From positions 1-29,284 of IMG/VR virus record IMGVR_UViG_3300020020_000131: a stretch of DNA of 29,284 nucleotides. One strand, 5' to 3'. The notes beneath the pieces are model-generated. The model made no database searches. It had not been told where the DNA came from and worked only from the letters and a program-made list of their open reading frames with translations. Source of the stretch: a virus. The position numbers and the translations under genes are program-made. Shown here one piece after another: positions 1,199 through 22,565 of this stretch. Each line of letters starts with the position of its first letter. Within the stretch, counting starts at the first letter, position 1.

Positions 1199-3013
1199 CT
1201 ACATGCAGGTCAGGTTGGCGAGACCGGAACGGCCGGAAGCGCAGACACCGATCGTGTACAGACGGGACAGGACACCCTTCTGAGCGATCAGGTGGCACTC
1301 CTCCGTCCACAGCGCCGTGTGGTCGTTCTCGGCGTTGAGGACCGAGTCCCGGACGACACCGAGGTCGAGCACGAGGCCGTTGCCACGGATGAACGTGCCG
1401 GCGGCGTAGATGAGGAACTGGACCGTCGCCGGGAAGTCCACCGTCGGCGTCGACCCGCCAGGCTGGTTGGCGCCACGCACCTGCCAGTCGTTGACGTACT
1501 GGACACGGACGGACCGGACGTCGAAGTAGGCGTCGATCTGAGCGTTCGTCACGGCGAACAGATCGAGCCCGTTCTTGCGGGCGAGGTCGGCGCGGAACGC
1601 CTCACGAGCCCAGATCGGCAGGACCATCTCCAGGATCGACTCCTGGCACATGCCGACCCGGGTGCGGTAGTCGACCGCCGCCCAACCGGCCGCCGTGAGC
1701 AGGTCGGGGGCGAACGTCTCACCGGGAGACCCGATGAACCCGCCCGTCACCACCGGAGTGGACAGCGCGACCACCGCCGCGATGTACCGCTGGTTCATCG
1801 CGTGGTAGTGGGCCGAACGGAGCAGACCGGCCTGGTGCCGGGTCGCTTCCGGGTAGGCGGCGTCGGTCAGGTTGCCGGCGGTGAGGCAGATGCCGTAGCA
1901 CTCCAGCCGGGCATCGTTGAACGCCGGGCATGGCACCCGGACACACGGCTTGTTGGTCGAGCCGGTGACGGTGAGGATGTCGTCGGTCTCCGTCCACAGC
2001 CACGGATTCGTGCCGGACGTGAAGGTGCCGGTGAACACGTCGGCCATCGATGGCGACGTCGGCCAGCGGAGCCCGCCACGCTCGATGCCGACCGTGGGCA
2101 GGTCGATCTCGCCGTCCTCACAGGTGAGGTCGAAGAAATCGTAGGTCACCTCGGACGGAGCACACCAGCCGCCACCGGCCACGAGCGAATCGACGTCGGT
2201 GAGGGCCTTGAACACCTCTTCGACGTGCTGCGGAGTCGAGTCGATGTTCAGGACATGCTCGAACTGGTTGGTGATGGTGGCGACCTTCGGCCCGTTCGGG
2301 TTGCCGGTCGAAGAGATGGGCGTCGACTTCGCACGCTCGTGGAAGGCATACGACAGTTCCTCGACGTCGGCGAACACCTTGCCGGCCTGGACCCGGGGCA
2401 CGTCCGCGGCGGCGGTGATGGCGAGCGCCGGAGCGAGGTCGGGCTTGGGAGCACGAGCGCGGATTTCGGCCATCGACACGTTGATGCGGAGAGGCTTCAC
2501 ACGGGCAGGCTCGGTGCCACGCTGAGACGCCGACGCGGCGATGGCGACGTCGGGAGCGTCGGCGGTGGCCGCGGGAGGCGGCGCCGGCAGCTCGGTGACG
2601 GTCGCGTCGGCACCCTCGCCGGCCCCTTCACCGTCGCCTTCACCCTCCCCGTCGCCTTCACCTTCCTCGGGGGACTGGCCGAGGACACGGTTCATGGCGT
2701 TGTCGGCACGCTCTTGGGCGGCCAACCGCTCACCTGCACGACGTTCCGATTCGGCACGGACACGCTCGATGCCTTCGGCGAGATCCTCCATCTGCACTAC
2801 ACGCTCAGGGTCGGATCGGGCATCCTCATCTTCGTAGAGCGCCTTCAACGCGTCGACGAGGCGGAACGCCAGCGACCCCTCCTGCTCCTCGTTGAGGTCC
2901 TCAGCCGGAAGCTCGGTGAGGTCCTCGGGGACGAGGATTTCGTCGTTGGTCTCGTCGCCGGCATCGGTTGCCTCGAAAGCGAACGGACCGCTGTGCTTGT
3001 AGTGGGCGCTCAT
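1199..3013 (-). CDS. Major capsid protein with N-terminal scaffold-like domain
   Basis: 604 residues. The ATG at 3013 follows GGAGGT with a 5-nt spacer. Residues 1-110 are acidic and helical with coiled-coil character ('GIERVRAESERRAGERLAAQ'), as expected for a scaffolding (delta) domain that is removed during maturation. Residues 115-136 are an almost pure Gly/Glu/Asp repeat. From about residue 170 the protein resembles an actinophage HK97-like capsid family, including 'QYVNDWQVRG', 'AAGTFIRGNG' and 'LDLGVVRDSVLNAENDH' towards the C-terminus. The gene follows the capsid-maturation gene and two small genes, and has a 450-bp leader with its own promoter. The assignment is from family resemblance plus position. 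The cleavage site between scaffold and shell domains cannot be read from sequence. Confidence 0.82.
   Translation of the reverse strand: MSAHYKHSGPFAFEATDAGDETNDEILVPEDLTELPAEDLNEEQEGSLAFRLVDALKALYEDEDARSDPERVVQMEDLAEGIERVRAESERRAGERLAAQERADNAMNRVLGQSPEEGEGDGEGEGDGEGAGEGADATVTELPAPPPAATADAPDVAIAASASQRGTEPARVKPLRINVSMAEIRARAPKPDLAPALAITAAADVPRVQAGKVFADVEELSYAFHERAKSTPISSTGNPNGPKVATITNQFEHVLNIDSTPQHVEEVFKALTDVDSLVAGGGWCAPSEVTYDFFDLTCEDGEIDLPTVGIERGGLRWPTSPSMADVFTGTFTSGTNPWLWTETDDILTVTGSTNKPCVRVPCPAFNDARLECYGICLTAGNLTDAAYPEATRHQAGLLRSAHYHAMNQRYIAAVVALSTPVVTGGFIGSPGETFAPDLLTAAGWAAVDYRTRVGMCQESILEMVLPIWAREAFRADLARKNGLDLFAVTNAQIDAYFDVRSVRVQYVNDWQVRGANQPGGSTPTVDFPATVQFLIYAAGTFIRGNGLVLDLGVVRDSVLNAENDHTALWTEECHLIAQKGVLSRLYTIGVCASGRSGLANLTCM
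2606..2671 (-). repeat. Gly/Glu/Asp-rich tandem repeat in capsid gene
   Basis: The capsid gene carries a short tandem array of GGC-GAA/GAG-GGT-GAC type codons giving repeated GE/GD pairs (capsid residues 115-136). It separates the helical scaffold-like domain from the shell domain and probably acts as a flexible acidic linker. Such arrays are prone to length change by slippage. Confidence 0.6.
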
Positions 3014-3106
3014 TGTGTACCTCCGGCTCGCGGACCCCCTGGTCCTGTACGCATGGTGAACGGACCGGGGAGTAGATGCAAACGGAGGCAGAGGGGCTAG
3101 ACGCGA

Positions 3107-3927: not shown

Positions 3928-6405
3928 TCATGAACCTCCTGGTCCCTTGATGATCCTAGACCACGCAGCTTCGGCACGGGCACGCGTCGCCGCCCGACGC
4001 GACGGATGGTCAAGCCCGACACGGCGAGCGATCCCCTCGACCACGTTCGAGAAGTCGACGACGTTGCGAGGCGTCGACGGGGGCGGCACCAGCACGCCCG
4101 CGGCCACGAGCGACGTCTGCTCACCGTCACGGACGTGGGTTTGGGTGCGAGGCACCGGGAACCCGGGCACGTTGACGACCAACGCACCGGCCAGCCGCCA
4201 CCGACCGGTGCGCGTCTTACGCCAGTCCCCTGAGACACCGGAGGCGTTCAGGACACGGAGCTGACGATCGGTTGTGTCGGGACGGAGCGCCCCAGCGAAC
4301 CAGATGCCGTAGTCGTCCTCGCCTACAGCGACATCGGCAACGGCATGACCGGCGTGCTCGTAGTGGTGGACGGCGGGGGCGAACCCGAGCGCAGCCGGCG
4401 CATGCAACGCGCCGAGCGTGATCTGGCCGACAGCAACCTCCTCACCGCCCTTGCAGTGGAGGGTGCCGGTACGGAACCCGGCGTAGTCACCTTGGCGGGG
4501 CGGGGTGACGCAGACCTTCGGCATGAACGACGTGTGGCAGACACCCCAGACGGCGAGGTGGCCCCAGCAACGCCCGTTCGCCTTGTACGTCGGTGGGGTC
4601 GGCCCCTTCAACTGCGGGTTGCGGGTCCACTCCACCGGAGGCTTGACCGGCGGCCCCATTGACGCCGTCAACGACTCACCGCCCCGGAAGCGTTCGCCCG
4701 CGACCCACAACTCGACACCCGACAACGCCACCGACGGCGGCTTGGCTTCCGGCCAGTCGATGCCGTAGCCGAGGGTGACGTGCGGCGTGAAATGCGGATG
4801 GGTTGAGTCGGGTGGAGCGACCGCTTCCAGATCACGGCGAAGGTCGCCCAGTTCGGCCGACTCGATGAGGTAGACGGTCGCAGGAGGCTCGTCATCGCCG
4901 ATCCGGCCCACACCCCCCACCCGAGCGTCAGCGCTCCACTCAGCGCGCTCAGCGGCCCACTCGTGCAACGCCTCGACCGTCTCCGGCGGGGCTTCGTCGG
5001 CCGGCCCGTAGTAGCCGAGCGTGACGTGCAGCTCATCCTCGGGGAGACCACCGTCAACTACGACCACCCCCGGGTCGGCCGGACGCACCACCACCACGAG
5101 CCCCTTGGGCGGCTCGAACGCTTCGGTGACAGCGGCGAACGACTCGGCACCTTCGACCGCCATCAACTCGGGCGGCTCCTGCCCGCCGTCACGCAGATGG
5201 GAAGCGAGGTGACCCCAGACGCCTTCACGCTGATCGGGCGGGATGTCGACACCGCCGTGAGCGCCGTTGAGGCGGGCGATGCCGGCGGCGCACGCCGTCA
5301 GGTTCGCCGCGCCCGGCCGACCAGCCATCGACACGTTGTGGTGCAGGAACTTACAGGCGGACCGATCCACCACCCCGTCGTCGATGGCGCCACCGTCGAT
5401 CCAGGCGTAGGCGGCACGAGCGACATCGGCATCGAGCTTCTCCGGCAGCCGGCCAGCATGACCGGACGCGTTCCACGTCCCGGCCACCGTGCGAGCCTCG
5501 TGCGGCGCGACAACACTGAACGACGACAACATGCCCACCACTTCGACGTCAGGCTCACCACCGACATCGACAGGCTCGACGGTCTGGTACTCGTCGTCGG
5601 GGACGAGCTCGACCTCGGCTTCGGGCAGCGCCGGTTGACCGGTGAGGCAGCCGTCCATGACGCGACCCTTGCGGATGAGCATCTTCTCCGGTTCGACGAG
5701 CAGATCGATGAGCATGTCGCCTTCCTCGCCGTGTTCGGCTTCGCCGGAACCCTCGGGGAAGATCAGATCGACGTCGGCGTCTTGCGTTTCGTCGATGGTG
5801 ACGGAGATGCCCCGGAGGTAGCGCTGGCCGATCATGCGGTGCACCCGGCGGCCCTCTTCGGACTCCATGTCGAACTGGCCGCGACCGAGAATCGCCGGCA
5901 CCCGACGACCGTCGGCGAGGGCCAATTCGGAGCGGACCACCTCATCAGCCCGAGCAACGATCAGCGCGTCATCATGCCCAGGCGCGGTGCGGTCCTGCCA
6001 GTAGATCGACAACGGAGGCTCACGCCACGTCAACGCACCTTCGGCGAACTCACGACGAACAGAGTCCCCCGTCTCCACCGTTTCGACAGCGAGCACGCCA
6101 CGCCAGTAACCCTTGGAGTAGCGGGACCCGTCCCATTCGGCAGCATCGAACGACTCACCCTCCCCACCGGGAGCACCTTCGGCCGTCGGGTTGGCCTCGG
6201 CGCTCTGCCACGCCTCGTACACGGCGGTGAGCACCGGATCAGCCGCGGCTTCATCCTCGTCGTTGGCGTAGAGCGCGGCGACTTGATCGTTGGCGTCATC
6301 CTCGTTGGCGTGGCATCCCTCGACTTCGCCGTCGTCGTCCTTTACGACCGCCCAGGGGCGATCAGGGGGACAGTCGGGGTGGTTGGCTTGGGTGTGCCAC
6401 GGCAT
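3928..6405 (-). CDS. Capsid maturation protein with embedded 2H phosphoesterase domain
   Basis: 825 residues, multidomain. Residues 1-50 carry a short 'WAVVKDDDGEVEGCH...QVAALYAN' unit seen at the start of phage head-maturation proteins. Residues 90-300 resemble the prohead-protease region of such proteins. Residues 340-410 hold a helical 'HHNVSMAG...ACAAGIARLNGA' unit. Residues 435-570 contain two HxT motifs (H460-V-T and H542-V-T) about 82 residues apart, each in an 'HVTLGY' context, the signature of the 2H phosphoesterase (2'-5' RNA ligase-like) fold. Residues 610-770 ('GHLAVWGVCHTSF', 'SGDWR', 'VNVPGFPV') match the C-terminal part of actinophage capsid-maturation proteins. Role: probable processing of the capsid scaffold. 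The added 2H domain would act on a 2',3'-cyclic or 2'-5'-linked nucleotide substrate. No clear ribosome-binding site precedes the ATG at 6405. Confidence 0.75.
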   Translation of the reverse strand: MPWHTQANHPDCPPDRPWAVVKDDDGEVEGCHANEDDANDQVAALYANDEDEAAADPVLTAVYEAWQSAEANPTAEGAPGGEGESFDAAEWDGSRYSKGYWRGVLAVETVETGDSVRREFAEGALTWREPPLSIYWQDRTAPGHDDALIVARADEVVRSELALADGRRVPAILGRGQFDMESEEGRRVHRMIGQRYLRGISVTIDETQDADVDLIFPEGSGEAEHGEEGDMLIDLLVEPEKMLIRKGRVMDGCLTGQPALPEAEVELVPDDEYQTVEPVDVGGEPDVEVVGMLSSFSVVAPHEARTVAGTWNASGHAGRLPEKLDADVARAAYAWIDGGAIDDGVVDRSACKFLHHNVSMAGRPGAANLTACAAGIARLNGAHGGVDIPPDQREGVWGHLASHLRDGGQEPPELMAVEGAESFAAVTEAFEPPKGLVVVVRPADPGVVVVDGGLPEDELHVTLGYYGPADEAPPETVEALHEWAAERAEWSADARVGGVGRIGDDEPPATVYLIESAELGDLRRDLEAVAPPDSTHPHFTPHVTLGYGIDWPEAKPPSVALSGVELWVAGERFRGGESLTASMGPPVKPPVEWTRNPQLKGPTPPTYKANGRCWGHLAVWGVCHTSFMPKVCVTPPRQGDYAGFRTGTLHCKGGEEVAVGQITLGALHAPAALGFAPAVHHYEHAGHAVADVAVGEDDYGIWFAGALRPDTTDRQLRVLNASGVSGDWRKTRTGRWRLAGALVVNVPGFPVPRTQTHVRDGEQTSLVAAGVLVPPPSTPRNVVDFSNVVEGIARRVGLDHPSRRAATRARAEAAWSRIIKGPGGS

Positions 6406-8689: not shown

Positions 8690-8865
8690 CGTCCACCCCA
8701 AGGAACGCCATCACGGACGAGGTTCGTCCTGGTGAGATGAACGTGGGCGTCGTGATAGACGCCATCCTCGATGCAGCGTGCCCCGACCGCGGCGAGGCAT
8801 GTGGGGCAGAACCCGACCGCGGCGACCGAACCATCGTCGGGCACAAGCCGGCCGATCGGGATCAC
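8686..8865 (-). CDS. Small Cys/His protein, probable Zn-binding
   Basis: 59 residues from a GTG at 8865 that overlaps the MuF stop (GTGA). Cys20 and Cys23 ('FCPTC'), Cys31 and His38/His41 ('GARCIEDGVYHDAHVH') form a plausible Zn site of the kind common in small actinophage proteins of unknown function. The GTGA junction decides the start; a longer frame runs into the MuF coding region. Confidence 0.68.
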   Translation of the reverse strand: MIPIGRLVPDDGSVAAVGFCPTCLAAVGARCIEDGVYHDAHVHLTRTNLVRDGVPWGGR

Positions 8866-11480
8866 GCGGCCCACGGGATCACCGCCCAATCAGCGACGTC
8901 CATGCCAGCAACCCGAGCCACTTCCACGACTTCAGCATACAACACCTCGAAATCCTGGCCGCGATCAATGGCCTCAGGGACCAGTTCGCTGTAGCGGACA
9001 GCAGCCGCGCTGGTTCCTTGCCCACCGACCGACCCCTCGGCGATCACCTCTTCCAGTTCCCGCACCTCACGTTCCCATGCCTGGAACGACATCCGCCACG
9101 GAGGATCATCCGCTTCGGTCGCTCCACGCAGCAGCGAGTACGCCCGATCCGCGTGCTGCTCGGATTGATGTGCGGCGAGGTAGCCGGCGGCGTCCTCGGC
9201 GTCGACACCGACAATCCGAAGCAAGTCATACCCGTCCTGCTCCAACACGGACGAGACATCGGAGGCGGTCATCCCGCCGAATCGGTTGGGATTGGGGATG
9301 CGACCGGAACGGATCGAGCCGGCGATATCGGCGCGGCGAGTGTGGTAGAGCCACTCGTCCATGAACTCGTCGACAGTGGTGCCGTTGAACACGCCGGCCG
9401 CTTGGGCGCGTTGCATGACGACGTCGGGGGCGTCGGTGGCACGATCGGAGAACCAGCGGGACGCCAACCGGTTTCGTTCCCAACCGGAAACCTTCGCCTT
9501 GTACCAGTCGTATTCGCCGCCCGAGCCAGTGGCCAGGCGGGGACGGCGGATGTGGAAGGCGTCGGCTTGATTGAGCCAGCCAAGTGAGTCAGCTTGGATG
9601 GAAGCGGCTTCGGCACGGACCCGAGCCCGGAGAACGTTGACGTCGGGCAGAGACGCAGAGAGTTGTTCGGGGGAGACGCCGTGGGCGGCGGCGAACCGGG
9701 TTCGACGTTCAGCGGTGGCGCTGGATCGAGTGGCACGGGCCGGCCGGGTCACCTCGGGGGCAGGGTCGGAGAAGATGACGGTGCAGTTCCGAACTATAAT
9801 TCCGTTTGCGATGAACCATCCCGTTCGGGCAGAAAGGTCGTAGACGTGGCCGCTCCAGTCGTTGATGAAGCTCACCTGATCCAGATGTACCGGGATGGAG
9901 CCAGCCTCGAAGACGTGATTCGGGCCGACGGACTCTCTATGAACCGCGTGTACGGGATCATGTGCCGAGCCGGAGTCGTGCGCAGCCACAGCGATGGACT
10001 GCGCATGGCGCGTCGTAACCGGCGAGCCAGCATCGCCAGCGAAGTCCTCCGCCGCTACGAGACCGGAGAGAGCGAGAATGCCCTCGCCGCGGCGTTCGGC
10101 CATTCGCGACAGGTGATCCGGGCCATCCTGCTCGACGCCGGAATCGAGCCCCGCGGCAGATCGGCAGCGAATGTGTTGCGGATGAGAGATGACGAGTTGG
10201 CGGGACGAGTCACCCGGAACGCTCACCTGTCGATGGGCGCTGGCGAAGCCGTGGTCGCCTATCTGCTCGGCGATTGGCTTGGGTACGACGTGGAGAGGCA
10301 AGTCCAGGTTGGTCGCCGCAACATCGACATCGCCGTCGGGAATGTGGCCGTAGAAATCCACCTCCGCCCGGCCCATCCGTTGAGCGACCGCTTGGAGATT
10401 CAACGTCTCCCAAACCTGTTCGATGCTGGATATCACGTCGTCTACCTGTGGCACCGCAAGCGTTTGGTGATCGGAGCGAAACACGCCGAGGACATAGCCG
10501 CCTTCATTGAGCGCGTCGGCCTGGCACCAGCCGACCGGCGTTGCCACGGGGTGGTTGGGCGTGACCACCAGTTCGCCGAGTGGAGTCGTGAGTCGGACCA
10601 TTGGACCCGCATACCAGCGACGCAGAATTGCTGACACCCCTTCCGCCTCCACGACAGTAACCCCGCTTACGCAACGGCAATTTATCACTTCGGCCGCCGG
10701 GCCGGGGCCGCCCGGGTACTCCATCATTGCGCCGCCGACGTTGAACATGTCGTCGATGGGGACGGTCTGCCCATCAGCCTCGATGTGGGTTGGGCGGGTG
10801 CGGGCGTCGGTGGTGGCGAGCCACGTCTTGGTTTCCGGAGCCAACTCGGGAATGGCACGGGCGCCGGCCATCGCCCCCGCATTCGACGCCGACACAACTT
10901 CGGTGCGGGCGATCGTCCTTGCGCGCCGCTGGTTGATTTGTGACTGACCGAGGAGTCGTTGCTTGATGTCCTCGATCCCCTCGCCAGCGGTGAACCCCTT
11001 GACCAGTTCGGAGCGGACATCCATCCACATGCCGTCGCCGACGTTGACGAGACGATTCGTGGCGGCGGCGAGATGATCCCGGGCACGAACATCGAGAGCG
11101 AGCCGGGCGTTGAGCGGGAGCGACGTGCGGGGGACAAGCGCGCCCGGGGCGACAGCCAGATTGGCGCCGGCCGGGACCGACTGGGATGGAAGGTTGATGC
11201 CGGCGTCTTCGTAGAGGGCGACAGCGACTCCGGTGGCGGAACGACCGTAGGCGGCACCAATGTGCGTGGACAGCTCAGGAATCTCCTGAGACCACACTCG
11301 ACGGGCCTCCAGTACGTCGTCGAGGTCCATGCCTCCCACGGGGTCCATTGCGGCGGTGACGGGGTTAGACGCCAACTGGCGGGCCGCAGCGAAGAACGCT
11401 TTGCGGACGGCCCGAGCGAACACCTCCTCAGCCTTCAAGATGAGGGCGTCAAGCTCGGCGTCGGACAGACCGGCGATCAC
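8862..11480 (-). CDS. MuF-type head morphogenesis protein interrupted by an intein
   Basis: 872-residue precursor from a GTG at 11480 overlapping the stop of the Zn-ribbon gene. Residues 1-269 contain the MuF (SPP1 gp7-like) core: 'RTIARTEVVSASNAGAM' is the helix before the conserved tail, and 'DARTRPTHIEADGQTV' and 'INCRC' its Asp/Thr/His and Cys motifs. An intein (residues 270-565) interrupts the motif immediately after 'INCR'; the C-extein resumes with 'CTVIF'. The spliced product would be 269 + 307 = 576 residues. Residues 566-872 form a helical C-terminal extension of unknown role. MuF proteins sit at the portal inside the head and help assembly; some carry effector domains in the C-terminal part. 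The gene follows the portal, as expected. Confidence 0.85.
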   Translation of the reverse strand: MIAGLSDAELDALILKAEEVFARAVRKAFFAAARQLASNPVTAAMDPVGGMDLDDVLEARRVWSQEIPELSTHIGAAYGRSATGVAVALYEDAGINLPSQSVPAGANLAVAPGALVPRTSLPLNARLALDVRARDHLAAATNRLVNVGDGMWMDVRSELVKGFTAGEGIEDIKQRLLGQSQINQRRARTIARTEVVSASNAGAMAGARAIPELAPETKTWLATTDARTRPTHIEADGQTVPIDDMFNVGGAMMEYPGGPGPAAEVINCRCVSGVTVVEAEGVSAILRRWYAGPMVRLTTPLGELVVTPNHPVATPVGWCQADALNEGGYVLGVFRSDHQTLAVPQVDDVISSIEQVWETLNLQAVAQRMGRAEVDFYGHIPDGDVDVAATNLDLPLHVVPKPIAEQIGDHGFASAHRQVSVPGDSSRQLVISHPQHIRCRSAAGLDSGVEQDGPDHLSRMAERRGEGILALSGLVAAEDFAGDAGSPVTTRHAQSIAVAAHDSGSAHDPVHAVHRESVGPNHVFEAGSIPVHLDQVSFINDWSGHVYDLSARTGWFIANGIIVRNCTVIFSDPAPEVTRPARATRSSATAERRTRFAAAHGVSPEQLSASLPDVNVLRARVRAEAASIQADSLGWLNQADAFHIRRPRLATGSGGEYDWYKAKVSGWERNRLASRWFSDRATDAPDVVMQRAQAAGVFNGTTVDEFMDEWLYHTRRADIAGSIRSGRIPNPNRFGGMTASDVSSVLEQDGYDLLRIVGVDAEDAAGYLAAHQSEQHADRAYSLLRGATEADDPPWRMSFQAWEREVRELEEVIAEGSVGGQGTSAAAVRYSELVPEAIDRGQDFEVLYAEVVEVARVAGMDVADWAVIPWAA
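9772..9845 (+). promoter_or_regulatory. Promoter and ribosome-binding site for the antisense nuclease
   Basis: TATAAT at 9795-9800 is a perfect -10 box in an otherwise GC-rich coding region; on the other strand these bases encode the conserved 'GIIV' of intein block G. No good -35 hexamer is visible 17 bp upstream. AGAAAGG at 9831-9837 gives an 8-nt spacing to the GTG. A start site near 9807 would leave a leader of about 40 nt. Confidence 0.65.
9786..10673 (-). mobile_element. Intein in MuF protein (296 residues)
   Basis: Cys270 of the precursor (codon 10671-10673) opens block A ('CVSGVTVVEAEG'). Block B is 'GELVVTPNHPVATP' with Thr307 and His310 of the TxxH motif. Block F is residues 545-560, starting HVYDL. 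Block G ends 'GIIVRN' at Asn565 (9786-9788), followed by Cys566 as the +1 nucleophile. The usual penultimate His is replaced by Arg564, a known natural variation. The insertion lies in the most conserved MuF motif, typical of homing sites. No in-frame LAGLIDADG or HNH domain is visible on the minus strand. Residues 319-544 are Ala/Gly/Asp/His-rich with little obvious core, and they are opposite the nuclease gene on the other strand. Confidence 0.9.
9846..10634 (+). CDS. EDxHD/Vsr-like homing endonuclease, antisense inside the intein
   Basis: 262 residues, the only plus-strand gene. The GTG at 9846 follows AGAAAGG (9831-9837, 8-nt spacer) and a perfect TATAAT at 9795-9800. Residues 8-45 and 62-102 are two helix-turn-helix units ('MYRDGASLEDVIRADGLS...', 'RRYETGESENALAAAFGHS...'), as in DNA-binding parts of homing nucleases. 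Residues 125-225 match the Vsr-like fold: Glu134 in 'GAGEAVVAYLL', then 'GYDVERQVQVGRRNIDIAV' (Asp161), 'NVAVEIH' (Glu170, His172), 'DAGYHVVYLWHRK' and 'AEDIAAFIE'. These are the EDxHD catalytic pattern. The gene lies wholly within the intein, leaving 60 bp and 39 bp single-coding at the two ends. Its codons are exactly reverse-complementary in register to those of the intein. It probably cuts intein-less muF genes to spread the intein. Confidence 0.85.
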   Translation: MAAPVVDEAHLIQMYRDGASLEDVIRADGLSMNRVYGIMCRAGVVRSHSDGLRMARRNRRASIASEVLRRYETGESENALAAAFGHSRQVIRAILLDAGIEPRGRSAANVLRMRDDELAGRVTRNAHLSMGAGEAVVAYLLGDWLGYDVERQVQVGRRNIDIAVGNVAVEIHLRPAHPLSDRLEIQRLPNLFDAGYHVVYLWHRKRLVIGAKHAEDIAAFIERVGLAPADRRCHGVVGRDHQFAEWSRESDHWTRIPATQNC

Positions 11481-21338: not shown

Positions 21339-21849
21339 GACGACGACGAGTTAACCAGACGACAGGCAAGGCGATGGCGACCATGTAGAACTTGCCGACG
21401 GTGTTGCCGAACCAGTGGGCGGTCGACCCGAACGCCAACGTCAGGAACAGCAACGAGTCGACGACTGCTCCGACGACGTTGGAGGCGATGACGGCCACTG
21501 ACCATTGGCGGCGACGCAGCGGGTCGTACACGGCGAAATCGGCAAGCTCCGACACGGCGAACGCTAAGCCGGATGCAGCGGCGATCGGCAGATAACCGCC
21601 GGGGATTGTGGCGGCGTCCTCGATCAGGTACGACACCCCGGCACCGAGGGCGATGGCAGCGAGCACCCAGCGTCGCCCGCCCAACTCATGGAGGGCATCG
21701 CGCAGTCCGAAGGCGAGCCCGGCGAAGTAGACGCCGGCTGGCGCTGCTAGACCGAATCCGATCGGGACGATCCCATATCGGCCGAGCGCCCAGTTCGCGG
21801 CGACGACGGTGCCGACGAACGCGGCGAACACCGCACATTTCACGGTCAT
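21298..21849 (-). CDS. VUT/YhhQ-like queuosine-precursor transporter
   Basis: 183 residues with about five or six membrane helices. 'GLRDALHELGGRR' at about residues 48-60 and 'GAGVSYLIEDAATI' are characteristic of the VUT (YhhQ, DUF165) family, which imports preQ0 or preQ1. 'GLAFAVSELADFAVYDPLRRR' at about 95-115 is the second family motif. The ATG at 21849 overlaps the upstream stop (ATGA); the reading frame runs 41 bp into the transglycosylase-like gene. Together they suggest that the phage salvages a deazaguanine precursor from the medium and inserts it into its DNA. Confidence 0.8.
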   Translation of the reverse strand: MTVKCAVFAAFVGTVVAANWALGRYGIVPIGFGLAAPAGVYFAGLAFGLRDALHELGGRRWVLAAIALGAGVSYLIEDAATIPGGYLPIAAASGLAFAVSELADFAVYDPLRRRQWSVAVIASNVVGAVVDSLLFLTLAFGSTAHWFGNTVGKFYMVAIALPVVWLTRRRRVVSRNALNTAGS

Positions 21850-22565
21850 GGCCCCTCGTTAAGAGCCAACTCACACAGCAGCGAGCATTCGAACGATGGT
21901 TCGTCGGCGTGGTTCCCTCGGTCGGGGTCTAATTCATCGAGGAACACGTCTTTGAGGCAGGAGTGCCCGATGTCCCGTTCTAGCTTCGCCATGCGGGCGA
22001 ACACGTCGGGGAAGTCGCGGCGGATCTTGTTCCAGTAGCCCATGCCACCCTTGACGCAGCCCACACAGTTGTTGTTGCGGTAGCCGAGCAGATACATGGT
22101 GGGCAGGGTGATCCCGGCCCGGTCGATGACGGCGAGACAGTCCGATTTGGTGAGCCCGGCGTCGATCAGCGGCGTGGAGAGGTTTACGTCGGGGTTGTTG
22201 TCGCGGAAACGCTGCGCACGTCCTCGTTCTTCGACGGTGTATCCGAACACTTGGATGTCGTTGGGCTCCTGGAAGGCGAAGCGGACTTTGCGTTTCAACT
22301 CTGCGGTGCAGAGGGCACCGGCGGGCGAGTTGAGGAACCGGCGCTCCTCCCACACCTGCCACGTGTCGATGTAGCGATCGGAGCGGAGGCGGACGACGTC
22401 GACGTTGAGCCACTTCTCGACGTCACAGATAAACCGTTCGTTGTCGGGGTGTTCACTGCCGGGGTTGGTGTAGGCGAGAACAACGTCGTCATGGTCGCGG
22501 AGAGTGAGGCGTGCGGCGACGGCGGAGGCTGCGCCTGCGGAGAACCAAACGAGGTGACGGGTCAT
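21846..22565 (-). CDS. PP-loop ATPase of the PAPS-reductase family
   Basis: 239 residues; ATGA junctions at both ends. 'HLVWFSAGAASAVAARL' (residues 4-20) is a PP-loop, the pyrophosphate-binding motif of N-type ATP pyrophosphatases, with the usual SGGxDS changed to SAGAAS. 'VLAYTNPGSEHPDNERF' follows as in PAPS reductase-like proteins. Cys86 in 'AGALCTAELKR' and the 'NNNCVGCVKGG' pair (C167, C170) could hold an iron-sulfur cluster or Zn. Relatives adenylate a substrate and transfer sulfur or nitrogen. Beside the deazaguanine genes, a base-modifying step is plausible; phosphorothioation alone would need Dnd partners, none of which is visible. Confidence 0.78.
   Translation of the reverse strand: MTRHLVWFSAGAASAVAARLTLRDHDDVVLAYTNPGSEHPDNERFICDVEKWLNVDVVRLRSDRYIDTWQVWEERRFLNSPAGALCTAELKRKVRFAFQEPNDIQVFGYTVEERGRAQRFRDNNPDVNLSTPLIDAGLTKSDCLAVIDRAGITLPTMYLLGYRNNNCVGCVKGGMGYWNKIRRDFPDVFARMAKLERDIGHSCLKDVFLDELDPDRGNHADEPSFECSLLCELALNEGP

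Follow-up and report, generated by a model that had tools for sequence, protein, structure and literature searches.

We have analysed a 29,284-base viral contig (IMG/VR virus record IMGVR_UViG_3300020020_000131; this whole stretch is the window below), whose minus strand carries a MuF-like head morphogenesis gene containing an intein. Our main finding is that the plus strand of the intein DNA carries a second long frame, which encodes a nuclease-like protein with two helix-turn-helix (HTH) units. We put the probability at roughly 0.87 that this is a mobile MuF intein with a homing endonuclease encoded by a gene of its own, overprinted antisense on the intein. Directly observed features carry this reading, namely the two frames and their opposed register, selection on the antisense frame, the predicted folds, the signal at the start site, and the empty and occupied alleles in relatives. 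A preliminary description of the window had already proposed a separate antisense nuclease gene, and the proposal is now supported by tblastn relatives, opposed gene pairs, selection and fold. The coordinates are collected in Table 1.

The intein lies in the minus-strand open reading frame (ORF) where the preliminary description had placed it, with Cys1, TPNHP as block B, GHVYDL as block F, and a terminal Asn followed by Cys. The window and the relatives in the profile all show the intein signature, that is, Cys or Ser at position 1, TxxH in block B, a terminal Asn, and Cys, Ser or Thr at +1. PF14890 matches the window intein with an E-value of 2e-4, under the family cut-off in Pfam, and a profile built from 17 intein relatives supports it. 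In the AlphaFold model, made with the same number of sequences as the nuclease model (41), the block means of the predicted local distance difference test (pLDDT) are 89–95 for residues 1–60 and 92–94 for residues 271–296. When these ends are joined, the best Foldseek matches are inteins, such as that of Mtu RecA (2imz, probability 0.99, E 0.022), and the predicted structure has the HINT fold. Residues 147–257 have pLDDT below 50; that is, the sense centre is not folded in the model. Since parts of residues 81–120, including a conserved FHGDxSDGEVEIV-like stretch, are modelled fairly confidently, some of the region preceding this linker may be structured. Searches that included Pfam and PHROG gave no nuclease match in the sense frame. 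Together with the unfolded centre, this agrees with the earlier claim that the intein lacks an in-frame endonuclease, and an intein with a nuclease in frame was rejected as a candidate on these grounds. The window intein is putatively self-splicing.

On the plus strand, the 262-residue frame of the preliminary description was recovered, and its two HTH units were found by Pfam, PHROG and AlphaFold. The codon boundaries of the two frames coincide, every nuclease codon facing one intein codon in reverse, and the GTG start is the complement of the block-F residue His276 (GHVYDL). As any ATG or GTG faces a His in this register, what counts is which His it is. The start at block F and the place of the gene between blocks B and F are thus as first described.

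With the single nuclease sequence, phmmer found no match in the PDB, and the search for related loci with the single window proteins confirmed no relatives. The window nuclease has a weak REase_MTES_1575 match (E 0.017, under the Pfam cut-off), and among 21 aligned members of its family HTH_7 was found in 16, MTES_1575 in 13 and DUF559 in 4 (Pfam, E ≤0.1). The family profile matches the catalytic domain of the homing endonuclease I-Bth0305I (3R3P, E 1.8e-5) and 3HRL (E 1.7e-5) in the PDB. The AlphaFold2 model (41 sequences; pLDDT 84.6, predicted template modelling score 0.52) consists of the two HTH units and a mixed alpha/beta core, for which VIA ranks Vsr first (1cw0, Z 10.6, 107 aligned residues, 2.7 Å) and 3R3P second (Z 9.8, 92 aligned, 3.3 Å). 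A nuclease-family match, which had been set as a test for the plus frame, was therefore obtained. The full catalytic signature of EDxHD nucleases is E-D-x-H-D. E134, D161 and E170 are present in all 41 aligned nucleases, D161 and E170 lying inside the motif used for searching (see below) and E134 outside it. The His of the signature (His172) occurs in only 10 of the 41 sequences, and at positions 202–205 of the same alignment there is no conserved final Asp. Accordingly, of the label "EDxHD/Vsr-like" given earlier, the Vsr-like fold holds and the full EDxHD signature does not.

The same opposed pair has been found in many relatives. With the plus-strand protein as the tblastn query, 34 phage records were matched, the best (E 2e-18) on the antisense strand of other MuF inteins, and in all 11 of these records that were fetched the match lies on the strand opposite an intein of a head gene; the window intein itself matched 114 records. 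The nuclease frame opposes the intein in 23 of the 23 fetched loci of named phages, with 233–303 codons from the called start. The called start faces the block-F His in every one of them, lying 1–3 residues farther from the VY motif in L005, L015 and L024. The phage names refer to Gordonia, Mycobacterium, Salmonella, Escherichia, Klebsiella, Edwardsiella, Cronobacter, Pantoea, Pseudomonas, Vibrio, Haemophilus (host Aggregatibacter) and Idiomarinaceae, and one locus is from an uncultured virus. A motif scan of IMG/VR yielded at least 120 stretches, as did our second viral scan described below. Among the matches listed, 119 stretches have a nuclease match with hidden Markov models (HMMs) built from the window and the named phages, and the best one faces an intein in the same register in 119 of 119; a weak partial match in L092 (E 4e-5) faces no intein match. 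In 84,980 species genomes the scan found 18 stretches, two of them from one Paenibacillus chromosome, and the opposed pair is present in 17, L159 being without it. Inteins with a long antisense nuclease frame, which the preliminary description had suggested looking for, are thus present in numerous phages whose bacterial hosts are unrelated. The nuclease scans demanded the motif YNxDxxxGx[VI]A[VI]E, so that the conservation of its residues is partly imposed and variants of other spacing were missed. The viral loci also include near-duplicates: 85 of the 95 with a called start differ over residues 21–120.

Some of these loci have features of their own. A plus frame broken opposite an intact intein, which the preliminary description had named as evidence against the gene, was seen in one case: in L036:6701-7270 a stop breaks the nuclease frame and the overlapping intein frame is intact. 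This nuclease is a decaying copy, as a homing cycle would give. In L026:1-4006, one head protein contains two inteins, each with its own antisense nuclease. Virus Rctr197k (L016:1659-3011) has the same pair in a protein annotated as head morphogenesis, with flanks that are unlike the others and resemble a CxxC enzyme, presumably a deaminase-like one. For Salmonella phage PK1 (L021:2004-2813), the deposited annotation lists the antisense frame, as a hypothetical protein.

Because the codons are exactly opposed, each substitution can be scored as synonymous (S) or not (N) on each strand, and in the rates below the first letter refers to the sense strand and the second to the antisense strand. 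Over the nuclease span of 19 relative pairs (4,615 triplets), dNN/dNS is 0.40 (95% confidence interval, CI, 0.37–0.43) and dSN/dSS is 0.30 (0.26–0.34), and the antisense ratio is below 1 in 19 of the 19 pairs. The N-exteins, read alike as a control (4,455 triplets), gave 1.03 (0.97–1.10) and 1.07 (0.96–1.24), respectively. The plus frame therefore shows the excess conservation over the minus-frame expectation that had been proposed as a check (0.40 versus 1.03), and purifying selection acts on this frame in the relatives. Counted by sense codon position (1, 2 and 3), there are 1539, 516 and 1026 substitutions in the span and 1191, 947 and 2055 in the exteins; within the span, changes are thus tolerated at the wobble position of the nuclease. 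The 19 pairs were chosen from those available, and some come from the same phage groups. In an earlier 20-pair set, two pairs share a member because L142 is identical to L011 in the intein, and one N-extein control pair with few changes shows an antisense ratio of 0.32.

In the three central bins of the intein, the antisense ratio is 0.39, 0.35 and 0.45 and the sense ratio dNN/dSN is 0.67, 1.00 and 0.76, compared with sense ratios of 0.34, 0.40 and 0.36 at the intein ends. The value of 1.00 shows that the sense protein in mid-intein is without constraint beyond freedom from stops. The preliminary description had the intein frame held open by the gene opposite it; given this unconstrained middle, the relation is better reversed. 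In 3200 of 3570 locus pairs, the antisense product is also more alike than the sense translation of the same DNA, and a Mantel test gave co-inheritance of the nuclease with the splicing ends (r 0.694) and with the extein (r 0.694) the same value and did not tell them apart; both comparisons cover 85 of 100 loci.

The AGAAAGG and TATAAT reported earlier are both present in the window (Table 1). Among the relatives, a suitably placed Shine-Dalgarno core lies in the codons following block F in 68 of 84 nuclease-bearing inteins, with 22.9 expected under synonymous resampling (16 of the 100 inteins, without a block-F His by the pattern used, are omitted from this count). Inteins without an antisense nuclease give 5 of 79 (8.8 expected). 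In the complement of block G and the preceding codons, exact TATAAT occurs in 22 of 100 inteins (8.4 expected) and TGnTATAAT in 14 of 100 (1.6 expected), and the control values are 2 of 94 (1.3 expected) and 0 of 94. These counts make a promoter at block G likely only in a minority of the inteins. The nuclease would be expressed separately.

Mobility is indicated by the alleles of relatives. Gordonia phages with MuF exteins 95–97% identical to that of Shivanishola show four states at one codon. It is empty in Shivanishola and otherwise holds the 948-bp Vivi2 intein, the Keitabear intein or the Thing3/Nordenberg intein, the last two being 825 bp each. The exteins of Vivi2 and Shivanishola are 2304 bp each and 96.2% identical, and the 948-bp intein is missing precisely from the latter. 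The MuF gene of Salmonella phage BPS11Q3 matched 386 phage records, 58 of which cover at least 80% of it, and among 60 listed matches 36 are in two pieces covering 53–56%, as intein-less alleles would be. One of the two-piece matches, PBSE191, is 94.9% identical, measured on the extein only. Judged from the sequences, intein-less alleles with near-identical exteins indicate mobility in these relatives. The host sites vary, with several places used in MuF-like genes and the differing flanks of Rctr197k, and the window intein appears to lie two codons later in the INCRC motif than the Vivi2 intein.

On the other hand, a number of observations weigh against the reading of a mobile intein with an antisense homing endonuclease. 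In the window alone, resampling from the codon usage of the gene gives an expectation of 1.7 antisense stops and a probability of 10^-0.76 (0.17) for none, so the open frame by itself is not significant and proves little. The penultimate His of the intein is replaced by Arg, and beside the catalytic motif of the window nuclease stands Arg158, where the other 40 of 41 sequences have Tyr. Foldseek gave no match with E <0.001 for the nuclease model, and the claim about its fold therefore rests on the profile match and VIA. Of 118 called starts, 17 are without a 3-base Shine-Dalgarno match, and no −35 match or sigma-70 promoter with a −35 was found in the window. In addition, the antisense ratio is 0.71 (CI 0.52–0.92) in the intein outside the called nuclease span, and by bin it is 0.52 in block A, 0.49 in block B and 0.58 in blocks F–G. 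Strong sense constraint can thus lower the measure, and the extein is its sole neutral control.

Since the window alone is not decisive, the relatives decide. It could be argued that the plus frame is a mere mirror of a conserved intein in high-GC (guanine plus cytosine) DNA and no gene at all. Frames in the opposed register open easily at high GC, as the window probability illustrates. Moreover, the FHGDxSDGEVEIV-like stretch is the codon complement of the nuclease YNLDxAxGxVAVE and block B (TPNHPxLT) that of the C-terminal YRVIRG strand, so the conservation of both stretches cannot be assigned to one strand. We nevertheless consider this explanation highly improbable, because the frame is also open and conserved in 52 loci below 50% GC, selection acts on the antisense frame with a neutral extein control, the protein shows homology with HTH families and with the structure of a homing endonuclease, and the Shine-Dalgarno core is in excess. 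Over 143 loci there are 0 antisense stops versus 1023.7 expected, and in the 52 loci below 50% GC among them 0 versus 585.9, a count that is partly circular since the span was defined from open frames. Homology, the substitution pattern and structure give independent support for the antisense gene. A chance open frame was rejected on the stop counts over the relatives together with the selection on the antisense frame.

Other long antisense frames overlie ordinary head genes in the window. A 602-codon plus-strand ORF (1292-3100), for example, lies opposite the major head protein (1199-3013, minus). It is probably a composition effect and calls for caution when long antisense ORFs are read as genes here.

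A real antisense gene could also have another role, for example as a regulator with HTH units, as a nuclease for defence or superinfection exclusion, or as an inactive nuclease kept for binding. The two HTH units and the lack of conservation of the EDxHD His and final Asp would suit such a role. We regard it as unlikely, given that E134 is invariant (as are D161 and E170, within the search motif), that the fold is that of Vsr and the homing endonuclease I-Bth0305I, that the linkage to the intein is constant, and that the site is polymorphic for empty alleles.

For the antisense homing endonuclease, we infer the following course of expression, splicing, cutting and targeting. The minus strand would give the MuF precursor, in which the intein ends (blocks A/B and F/G) would fold as HINT and splice, the middle serving as a mostly structureless linker. 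The plus strand would give the nuclease with two HTH units and a Vsr fold, its Shine-Dalgarno sequence and start codon built into block F and its promoter perhaps around block G. The nuclease would cut intein-less MuF genes near the insertion codon, and repair from an intein-bearing copy would transfer the intein and the nuclease gene together.

Known mobile inteins carry their endonuclease domain in frame, between blocks B and F. The window element resembles them in its HINT ends, its insertion in a conserved host motif and the place of its nuclease information between these blocks, whereas its nuclease is a separate gene on the opposite strand and its sense centre is without a nuclease and unfolded in the model. 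With the I-Bth0305I/Vsr-like (EDxHD) homing endonucleases (3R3P, 1CW0), it shares the catalytic fold and the conserved E134 and D161. Unlike them, the window family is without the full EDxHD signature, lies antisense in a contiguous intein and has two N-terminal HTH units. Fractured genes, reportedly described by Dassa in 2009, are said to pair split inteins with free-standing Vsr-like nucleases, mainly in phages. The likeness lies in a nuclease unfused to the intein, a related nuclease superfamily and the mainly phage occurrence; the difference is that the window has a contiguous host gene and intein, with a nuclease gene on the other strand that overlaps the intein.

We give almost no credence to the window element being such a fractured gene, in which two half-genes and a split intein flank a free-standing nuclease, or else an RNA intron with an antisense endonuclease gene. 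Antisense homing endonuclease genes do occur in group I introns, as passages of one report describe (PMC9548176), but one unbroken 872-codon frame holds both intein ends, and in Rfam the sole match on 9600-10900 up to E 1 is to an unrelated small nucleolar RNA (0.86). On this evidence we rejected both a fractured gene with a split intein, the host gene not being broken in two, and a group I or II intron, no intron family having matched. As far as those passages go, the introns are alike in that the nuclease gene is antisense to a self-splicing element, and unlike in that they are RNA in nuclear ribosomal DNA, with the nuclease gene in a peripheral loop and no codons shared with a splicing protein (PMC9548176).

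A further comparison is with the ShiLan domain and Pacc40, for which the available excerpts of PMC11855218 (2025) describe out-of-frame HNH genes in insertions of phage methylases, with no splicing domain found. As in the window, a phage gene has an in-frame insertion on which an endonuclease gene is overprinted in a different frame; in contrast, the nuclease is HNH and lies in the third frame relative to the host gene, and the words "antisense", "opposite" and "reverse" are absent from those excerpts (PMC11855218). The window has HINT ends and a Vsr-like nuclease and is therefore not of this type. Inteins are on record in capsid-morphogenesis genes of Guernseyvirinae, and an intein-less relative has been noted, in the accessible portions of PMC6776784 and PMC8425127. 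They share the host gene, and LSPA1 was also matched by the window intein query; as a difference, the same portions mention no endonuclease inside the intein (PMC6776784, PMC8425127). No description of an antisense endonuclease in an intein was noticed among the papers listed in the literature searches; a preprint on actinophage inteins of "non-canonical architecture" (10.1101/2025.01.02.630785), cited in a passage of PMC11855218, lies outside that coverage. There is some risk that part of the antisense-nuclease arrangement has already been reported.

In a second viral sample, inteins were chosen by the C-terminal signature ANGIxxHNC alone, and 117 were analysed without de-duplication. An antisense HTH-Vsr-like nuclease lies opposite the intein in 8 of them, and an antisense zinc-finger DUF559/Vsr-like protein in 3 (L171:4112-4966, L231:10888-11727, L279:2584-3696), where a DUF559/Vsr-like domain is combined with zinc-finger repeats. 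In L231 the gene seems to contain a further intein, which has a related nuclease in frame. One intein (L275:3749-4177) faces a codon-opposed antisense HNH_3 protein. On the same strand, a shifted-frame ORF was matched by a rough HNH model in 48 of the 117 (e.g., L164:10397-10927 and L174:2048-2569). Two of the 48 were tested with Pfam, and both are HNH_3 (E 4.7e-17 and 2.5e-16). The rough HMM, seeded with two sequences, is not perfectly specific, since it also matched L279 in its zinc-finger frame. A zinc-finger DUF559-type nuclease in a shifted frame of the same strand was found in 3 (L165:8095-8877 and L167:9661-10425, both shifted by one frame, and L236, by motif only). At the shared MuF site of the Gordonia phages, Thing3 (L282:1088-1675) carries an intein of a third type, with an antisense frame that is LAGLIDADG-like by eye; Pfam gives it E 0.26 only, and tblastn matches phage records annotated as endonucleases at 2e-6.

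From these cases, we think it fairly probable that the homing endonuclease housed in an intein is commonly an overprinted gene of its own and not a fused domain. The frames and the nuclease families would vary, with antisense HTH-Vsr-like, zinc-finger DUF559/Vsr-like, HNH_3 and LAGLIDADG-like nucleases and same-strand shifted-frame HNH. The splicing blocks would be recruited as the ribosome-binding site, start codon and sometimes promoter of the nuclease, and cutting would be uncoupled from splicing and from host-gene expression.

In such an element, a selfish unit would divide its two essential activities between the two strands of a single stretch, and the blocks for protein splicing would also serve the nuclease as translation signals. 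As the overlapping pair occurs in many lineages, the origin and cost of dual coding become measurable. The arrangement may explain phage inteins that seemingly have no endonuclease, and it suggests that many homing endonucleases escape gene callers. Nucleases of this kind would also be compact and separately expressed, and their natural target sites could be predicted.

Table 1 Features of the intein-bearing MuF-like gene and the antisense nuclease gene in the window
Feature	Position	Strand	Details
MuF-like head morphogenesis gene, intein host	8862-11480	minus	872 codons; PF04233, E 1.6e-20; several PHROG head-morphogenesis matches
Intein	9786-10673	minus	296 residues, from Cys1 to Asn296 (codons 270-565), followed by Cys
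TATAAT, possible −10 box	9795-9800	plus	Opposite block G; chance of 0.03 when synonymous codons are resampled
Shine-Dalgarno-like AGAAAGG of the nuclease gene	9831-9837	plus	In intein codons just after block F
Antisense nuclease gene	9846-10634	plus	GTG at 9846, stop 10632-10634; 262 codons and stop
First HTH unit	9867-9968	plus	Residues 8-41; AlphaFold helices; phrog_1303 DNA-binding match, residues 7-48
Second HTH unit	10017-10136	plus	Residues 58-97; PF19575 HTH_58, E 1.1e-7; AlphaFold
Vsr/I-Bth0305I-like nuclease core	10233-10583	plus	Residues 130-246, with E134, D161 and E170; VIA; profile match 3R3P

Two further genes on the minus strand of the window were observed. The one at 3931-6405 encodes a protein that resembles a head maturation protease and has in its middle a domain of the 2'-5' RNA ligase superfamily (PF13563, E 1.6e-11), and the one at 21849-22565 is phosphoadenosine phosphosulfate reductase-like (phrog_424, E 1.5e-51).

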